NCBI GenBank assembly: GCA_017620235.1
Contig: JAFZQT010000013.1
Coordinates: forward strand, 1 to 35,283
Direction: 5' to 3'
Source: Butyrivibrio sp.
GTDB lineage: Bacteria; Bacillota; Clostridia; Lachnospirales; Lachnospiraceae
Length of the DNA: 35,283 bases
Part shown: positions 16,981 through 24,589 of the stretch, one piece after another
Layout: every line of letters begins with the position of its first letter
How positions within the stretch are numbered: position 1 is the first letter of the stretch
Notes under the pieces: model-generated
What the model was told of the DNA's origin: nothing
Databases searched by the model: none
Seen by the model: only the letters and a program-made list of their open reading frames with translations
Made by a program: the position numbers and the translations under genes

Positions 16981-17148
16981 TGATATACGAATTGCTTCGT
17001 TTCTTCGAAACTCTCGCAATTCTACAAACATTCGGAAACCGCTAATTTACAATGTAAATTGCTAATTCCTCATGTTTGTTCGGGTCATAAAGTCAAAATG
17101 CTTAACATGCAAGCATGTACGCATTTTGGACTTTTGACACCTATATCA
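16981..17148 (+). repeat. 168-bp structured intergenic repeat, copy A
   Basis: The inverse copy lies at 24381-24548, same length, about 154 of 168 positions identical by hand. Ends are TGATATA and TATATCA. Three hairpins are visible: GAATTGC/GCAATTC with inner GTTTC/GAAAC (16989-17022); ACAAACA/TGTTTGT with inner AATTTAC/GTAAATT (17024-17079); and AAAGTC/GACTTT with AAATGC/GCATTT and CATGC/GCATG (17089-17134). No coding capacity. It begins 21 nt after the hom stop and ends 29 nt before aspartokinase, and could be an insertion, an RNA processing site or a terminator-like element. Confidence 0.9.
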
Positions 17149-24367: not shown

Positions 24368-24380
24368 AAATGTGTTATTA

Positions 24381-24548
24381 TGATATGGGCGTTGAAAGTC
24401 AAAAATGTGTACATGCTTGCATGTTAAGCATTTTGACTTTACAACCCTAACAAACATGAGGAATTAGCAATTTACGAAGTAAATTAGCGGTTTCTGAATG
24501 TTTGTAGAATTGCGAGAGTTTCGAAGAAACGGAGCAATTCGTATATCA
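24381..24548 (-). repeat. 168-bp structured intergenic repeat, copy B (inverted relative to A)
   Basis: Reverse complement of 16981-17148 with about 14 differences, several in loops (AAT versus TTC between AATTTAC and GTAAATT) or near one end. It begins 13 nt after the GGDEF-EAL stop and ends 41 nt before glnS. An 11-bp direct repeat, ATTATGATATG, lies at 24377-24387 and 24550-24560, overlapping one end, and could be a target duplication. No coding capacity. Confidence 0.9.
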
Positions 24549-24589
24549 TATTATGATATGCAATAAAATATAAAGGTTAGGTTTTTATA

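Follow-up and report, generated by a model that had tools for sequence, protein, structure and literature searches.

Clostridiales-1 RNA (Rfam RF01699) is a candidate RNA of 2010 with no known function assigned; Weinberg et al. 2010 (PMC2864571) tabulate it as a probable RNA, probably without a cis-regulatory role, from Clostridiales and the human gut. Among the papers listed by searches of a mostly open-access literature, none treats this RNA as mobile, and the available portion of PMC5171806 does not mention the family. Among small repeated DNA elements of bacteria, REP sequences are 20-40 bp long, many of them are tied to RAYT transposases, and stabilisation of mRNA has been put forward for them as a hypothesis (PMC3116915, PMC3733652). 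The DNA analysed here (the window) is a stretch of 35,283 nucleotides from Butyrivibrio sp., positions 1 to 35,283 of contig JAFZQT010000013.1 in assembly GCA_017620235.1. It holds two copies of an element that, with a probability of about 0.85, belong to a MITE family found in Lachnospiraceae; Rfam lists the greater part of its unit as Clostridiales-1 RNA, and the Rfam model thus covers the MITE unit incompletely.

Copy 1 lies at positions 16981..17148 on the minus strand, antisense to hom and lysC, and copy 2 at positions 24381..24548 on the plus strand, downstream of an EAL-domain gene and upstream of glnS. Both are matched over the whole RF01699 model (1-166), with scores of 118.2 and 110.8 bits against a covariance-model cut-off of 48 bits, and by score and structure both are full-length members of the family. 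The original prediction, made by inspection of the letters, had described two 168-bp copies in inverted orientation, about 92% identical by hand, each filling the gap between two co-oriented genes and resembling each other far above chance. The coordinates and the orientation proved correct, the ungapped identity is 154/168, and the neighbours are indeed co-oriented (hom and lysC; the EAL-domain gene and glnS). The resemblance was borne out by Rfam E-values of 1.5e-26 and 1.4e-24 and by 13 matches in the same genome, 12 of them over the cut-off. The gaps are nearly but not wholly filled, since the 168 bp lie within gaps of 222 and 225 bp.

Three hairpins per copy, closed by a helix (P1) of TGATATA and TATATCA ends, were likewise recovered by folding, with TGATATG in copy 2. 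Fold z-scores were -9.5 for copy 1 and -7.5 for copy 2, and 0/200 shuffles were as stable for either. In copy 1, read on the minus strand, the predicted 5' arm of P1 (TGATATA) is at 17142..17148, hairpin 1 with a gCTTGc loop at 17082..17141, hairpin 2 with its conserved ATGAG...CGAATG internal loops at 17024..17079, hairpin 3 with a cGAAg loop at 16989..17022, and the 3' arm of P1 (TATATCA) at 16981..16987. The predicted hairpins of copy 2, on the plus strand, are at 24388..24447 (approximate limits, carried over from copy 1), 24450..24505 and 24507..24540. The loop difference reported earlier (AAT versus TTC) is real, and the pairs 13-63 and 14-62 in the fold of copy 1 show double, compensating differences relative to copy 2.

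A total of 61 genomes were searched with the RF01699 model. All 37 genomes of the genus contained matches, 1-32 each (in G011 none reached the cut-off). Of the 24 genomes from other families of the order, two contained matches, 8 and 17 in number. A pattern derived from hairpin 2 was found in at least 119 stretches of named genomes, including a record of Butyrivibrio hungatei DSM 14810; the 80 matches listed carry Lachnospiraceae or broader Clostridia/Eubacteriales names. Further copies, which the original prediction had proposed to look for in this genome and its relatives, are therefore abundant, and so are compensatory changes among them. The MITE reading also gives a nature to an Rfam family that lacks a known function and is widespread in Lachnospiraceae. 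The hairpin-2 pattern also occurs in three IMG/VR contigs (L332, L333 and L334), with the whole element in L332 and L333.

Complete units were identified in another genome of the genus (G066), in which 11/27 matches have the identical score of 110.6 and nine loci are 97-99% alike across 203-214 bp, with unrelated surroundings. The complete unit in this genome is 190 bp long; its ends read TGACGTAAGGGTCAAAAGT and, inverted, TGAGGTAGGTGTCAAAAGT, and are 16/19 identical (end pattern TGA.GTA.G.GTCAAAAGT). This 19-bp terminal inverted repeat is carried by 14/14 complete 190-bp units, a sample that comprises all listed 190-bp G066 units with both ends. Direct repeats of at least 5 bp flank the same 14/14 units (9/9 and 5/5 in two readings; 13 with 5 bp, one with 6) and, by eye, begin with T in 12/14 and end with A in 13/14; when flanks of nine units were paired with those of other units as a control, 6/72 combinations agreed. 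Units of other lengths in G066 have such repeats in 1/3 cases (5 bp; two-ended units of 241-242 bp) and 2/3 cases (5-6 bp; 39-bp units with both ends), and 3/3 complete 203-bp units found in G028 and G020 by regular-expression search have repeats of 5-6 bp. The 39-bp units L528 and L539 in G066 are barely more than two terminal repeats, with 5-6 bp direct repeats alongside.

Because terminal repeats and flanking direct repeats occur together in complete units, the family was assigned to the MITEs. It is short, noncoding and multicopy, has terminal inverted repeats and a duplication of constant length in complete units, varies in presence and copy number among relatives, with empty sites in some of them, and carries no transposase of its own; the MITE-like option of the original prediction is favoured by these properties. 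Compared with Clostridiales-1 RNA as published, the complete unit extends further and is distinguished by terminal inverted repeats, target duplications and stems that are almost free of G-U pairs. Several features speak against a MITE: copies that end at P1 are seldom flanked by a duplication and copy 1 of the window has none, compensatory changes are found at orthologous sites, and copies are concentrated at stop codons. The structure of a typical MITE is far less conserved than that of the Clostridiales-1 element, and the elaborate, conserved three-hairpin core with its compensatory changes, the peak at stop codons and the lack of a detected parent transposon all set the family apart from known MITEs.

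Both window copies carry the left terminal repeat only and end at P1. In copy 1 this repeat (19 bp; 17130..17148, minus strand) is identical to that of the complete 203-bp units (L034, L038 and L069), and inspection of the flanks revealed neither a second terminal repeat past the P1 3' arm nor a 5-bp target duplication. Copy 2 is flanked by the direct repeats TATTA at 24376..24380 and 24549..24553, a probable target duplication judging from the sequence and the related empty site L157. It is one of 4/84 copies ending at P1 that have a repeat of at least 5 bp, against 0.95 expected from shuffled partners (maximum 4 in 500). The second terminal repeat was either lost from the window copies by deletion, or they represent a shorter type of unit.

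Pairing just outside P1 reaches 75, 60, 48 and 43% at the first four positions, versus 36, 36, 33 and 37% in shuffled partners. Copying of the P1 extension from the left flank was considered on account of this excess and rejected, as drift with compensation explains it equally well; insertion into natural palindromes fits L007 but not the family in general, and a flank palindrome at L034/L038 turned out to be the same flank read in both orientations. An alternative pairing is possible in L014, L015, L043, L044 and L045, where the right flank immediately adjoining P1 could pair with the 5' strand of hairpin 1 by complementarity.

The following course of events is proposed for the MITE family. 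Complete units measure 190-203 bp and are built from a terminal inverted repeat (about 19 bp), the three hairpins with P1 as their closing helix, and a short hairpin on the 3' side in which the second terminal repeat lies. On insertion 5 bp of the target are duplicated, rich in A+T and mostly of the form T...A, and movement is presumably brought about in trans by a DDE-type transposase, to judge from the repeat and the duplication. The hairpins are probably maintained at the DNA level, as indicated by stems that are almost purely Watson-Crick and by tips with DNA-stable loops, and copies at stop codons were perhaps recruited as structures at mRNA ends.

Comparison of orthologous loci separated occupied from empty sites. 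The gap between hom and lysC could be read in 29 of 30 loci (L144 has no lysC match) and contains the element in the window locus only; the other 28 gaps are 29-90 bp long and element-free, and four of them belong to relatives with 97-98% identical Hom. The gap of L139 (G084) includes a terminal-repeat-like stretch with two mismatches, which is a relic perhaps, or chance. Upstream of glnS an intact copy was found in 0/29 other loci read, the site being empty in G035 (L157) and occupied by an internally deleted relic in G070 (L155). The element is also missing in relatives at L001 (one relative, L208, has a relic), L004, L007, L010, L058, L066, L087, L098, L102, L105 and L122. Deleted forms have lost hairpins 2 and 3 (L210, L212), retain 37-40 nt (L366, L379), or consist of P1 and hairpin 3 only (L457, L462), and in 16/28 of the pattern loci that were read the hairpin-2 motif is missing upstream.

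The original prediction had also allowed for a family of RNA processing or attenuation signals, with hom-lysC and glnS as the places to look. This option is not supported for the two window copies, which are lacking in relatives whose neighbour proteins are 97-98% identical. It is weakened further by the antisense position of copy 1 relative to its operon and by the genes upstream of the copies, which have no common function; recurrence of one upstream gene function, as in a riboswitch or other pathway-specific cis-regulation, was not observed among the upstream proteins, to which this comparison was confined. No sign of function was seen for the copies at hom-lysC and glnS, and both are probably selfish insertions without function.

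Several other sites are occupied in more than one species. In the intergene between thiolase and crotonase genes (L008 with L039, L101, L203, L201, L210 and L212) the flanks are alike and the hairpin-1 sequences very different, and two of the copies are without hairpins 2 and 3. At the orthologous site shared by L011, L061, L083 and L088 the element is preceded by a hairpin and T-run, by eye resembling a T-box-type terminator, and P1 reaches into the T-run of this putative terminator. In L005, L086 and L194, again an orthologous site in several species, the element is upstream of a putative gap gene (glyceraldehyde-3-phosphate dehydrogenase; by eye). Natural pairs of occupied and empty gene ends, such as those at thiolase/crotonase, could be used to measure effects of insertions on expression.

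A first alternative, which is compatible with a MITE and is regarded as possible though rather doubtful, makes the element a cis-acting structure at stop codons that shields the mRNA end or slows termination, with P1 containing or abutting the stop; mobility would have supplied the copies, and selection would have kept those at stop sites. Shielding of mRNA ends and slowed termination have both been proposed for the REP sequences of E. coli. In 72/121 copies the stop codon of an ORF of 80 codons or more, running in the same direction, falls at -25..+10 relative to where P1 ends on its inner side, versus 18/121 in a mirrored control, and in other loci a stop falls at -18..+17 of the element start in 17/39 versus 6/39; the latter sample is what remained of 48 matches after six truncated or tandem ones had been left out and another three removed for lying near an end. 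The share of stop-site copies is 59/82 among those unlike the window's and 13/36 in the window's GGTGTC type (L010-L012 excluded). An ORF starts within 150 nt downstream of 44/53 non-redundant stop-site copies (median distance 39 nt). P1 arms that hold host codons and deviate from the consensus are still paired in L016/L063, L017/L064, L042/L108, L055 and L084. In L017, L064, L042 and L108 the upstream frame enters P1 by one or two codons; a sense codon stands where TGA is usual, and the opposite (3') arm is altered to match.

Neither window copy is a case of this kind, however, as copy 1 is antisense and in copy 2 the stop codon is outside P1. The 53 upstream proteins also share no common family: their 61 Pfam families include one that occurs in two proteins and none that occurs in more (examples are ribosomal protein S11, thiolase and Cpn10), and the scarcity of G-U pairs speaks against selection at the RNA level. 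Only 1/9 recent G066 units is at a stop codon in sense orientation, yet two fairly recent copies elsewhere, L058 and L122, are at stop codons and are missing from a relative whose upstream flanks are about 97% identical, so that target choice or tolerance could explain the peak. The peak may thus arise from target choice, tolerance or recruitment, and recruitment of the stop-codon copies as mRNA-end structures is, on this evidence, less likely than not.

A second alternative, considered improbable, is a functional noncoding RNA with its own transcript or cut from an mRNA, its helices under RNA selection and its spread secondary. Covariation is strong: in 81 matches from 69 loci (a few of them from Butyrivibrio), none used for the model, 89.5% of cells pair, 54/57 pairs have double changes, 915 cells are doubly changed and 0/500 shuffles score as high, in an alignment that, being fitted to the model, leans towards the model structure. 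A MAFFT alignment of 68 sequences gave double changes in 24/26 predicted pairs. At 21 orthologous pairs of copies, some of which share a member, 985 base pairs are the same in both copies, 140 differ on both sides and 38 on one side, 78 are broken and 40 gapped. These compensatory changes at orthologous sites and the stop-codon peak fit a functional RNA, and the conserved internal loops are a further point in its favour. Against it are the empty sites in close relatives, the terminal repeats, the target duplications and the composition of the stems.

Selection at the RNA level is expected to tolerate G-U pairs and not A-C. Among pairs with a Watson-Crick share of 90% or more (33 pairs) there are 2484 Watson-Crick cells, 23 G-U, 13 A-C and 37 other, and among those with a share of 75% or more (44 pairs) 43 G-U and 43 A-C; the counts for 135 terminator-like hairpins in the loci analysed are 68 G-U and 30 A-C. 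Near the tip of hairpin 1 the counts of G-U and A-C are 18 and 18 in 98 Butyrivibrio copies, and 2 and 10 in 58 copies of set A3. In predicted folds, G-U pairs make up 1.6% for 118 Butyrivibrio copies, with the same share on the reverse complement, and 2.1% for 76 copies of set A3. The corresponding values for known or likely RNA structures are, with that of the reverse complement second, 13.7% with 8.0% (30 TPP riboswitches from the same order), 95/824 or 11.5% with 28/747 (34 tRNAs), and 75/1504 with 37/1462 (136 terminator-like hairpins). On consensus structures the gap is smaller than in folds, with 1.1% and 1.4% for the element versus 3.6% for TPP.

Terminal loops of the forms cGNAg, cGNNAg, gCNNGc or cCNNGg account for 257/358 in Butyrivibrio and 150/245 in set A3, against 9/136 in terminator-like hairpins and 0/98 in tRNA loops, and RNA parameters gave nearly the same result. 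The loops alone prove little, because gCUUGc is stable in RNA as well, which suits a functional RNA, and because the copies share ancestry. The tetraloop motifs counted are the ones that Nakano et al. 2002 name in their title, as cited in the reference list of PMC5090098; according to PMC5090098 itself, DNA hairpins with GAA loops melt higher than the others tested, and PMC10527192 lists DNA CGCGAAGCG at 88.5 C. Taken together, the scarcity of wobble pairs and the loop motifs suggest constraint or correction at the DNA level; either a folded single-strand intermediate or template-switch correction could keep the hairpins. Compensatory changes, looked for as a check on the original prediction, are many, but they almost never proceed via G-U and are weaker evidence of selection on RNA than they appear.

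A broader form of the MITE reading, in which a catalogued noncoding RNA is mobile DNA with covariation that originates at the DNA level and its stop-codon copies were repeatedly recruited at mRNA ends, is advanced tentatively, with the odds somewhat against it. Covariation is one of the main kinds of evidence for published bacterial RNA candidates, and here a strongly covarying family turns out to be a transposable element. Scarcity of G-U pairs is an easily read warning, and any other family can be examined for it; if the broader form is true, scarcity on both strands combined with DNA-type loops would provide a general test to tell DNA elements from RNAs in covariation-based catalogues.

The last alternative is an element of the IS200/IS605 or REP kind, which a Y1 (HUH) transposase would move in the form of a folded DNA single strand. 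Few G-U pairs and DNA-type hairpin loops would fit it, but it is very improbable, given the terminal inverted repeats, the 5-bp duplications and the absence of any Y1_Tnp (PF01797) match from 9/37 genomes of the genus, all with copies, among them G024 (99% complete, 15 copies) and G033 (100%, 7 copies). Elements of the IS200/IS605 type are not known to have terminal inverted repeats or 5-bp duplications, and Y1/RAYT was rejected as the required mover on the basis of these nine genomes.

For the MITE family itself, neither a transposase nor an autonomous copy was seen among the ends detected in G066 or in the portion of the G084 and G028 end patterns that was read; next to most unpaired G066 ends read, unrelated sequence begins within some tens of bases. 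One candidate for an autonomous copy, the single examined pair of ends with a plausible spacing (G066:C1:2715476-2717207), encloses what looks from its sequence like a glycoside hydrolase gene, and its ends were therefore taken as two relics. An ORF beside L485 was set aside as a transposase because its first residues look like those of a regulator. Copies in G084 look sorted by position, but recent G066 copies are in both orientations, and no claim of a replication-strand bias is made.

With REP sequences and REPINs the family shares the character of miniature, non-autonomous hairpin DNA, compensatory changes and tandem clusters; it is unlike them in its terminal repeats and 5-bp duplications and in the lack of Y1 from some of its host genomes. 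Tandem arrays of the element are present at L236:1-400, L239:4519-5019 and L246:4794-5212; in the first two the units measure about 150 and 175 bp.
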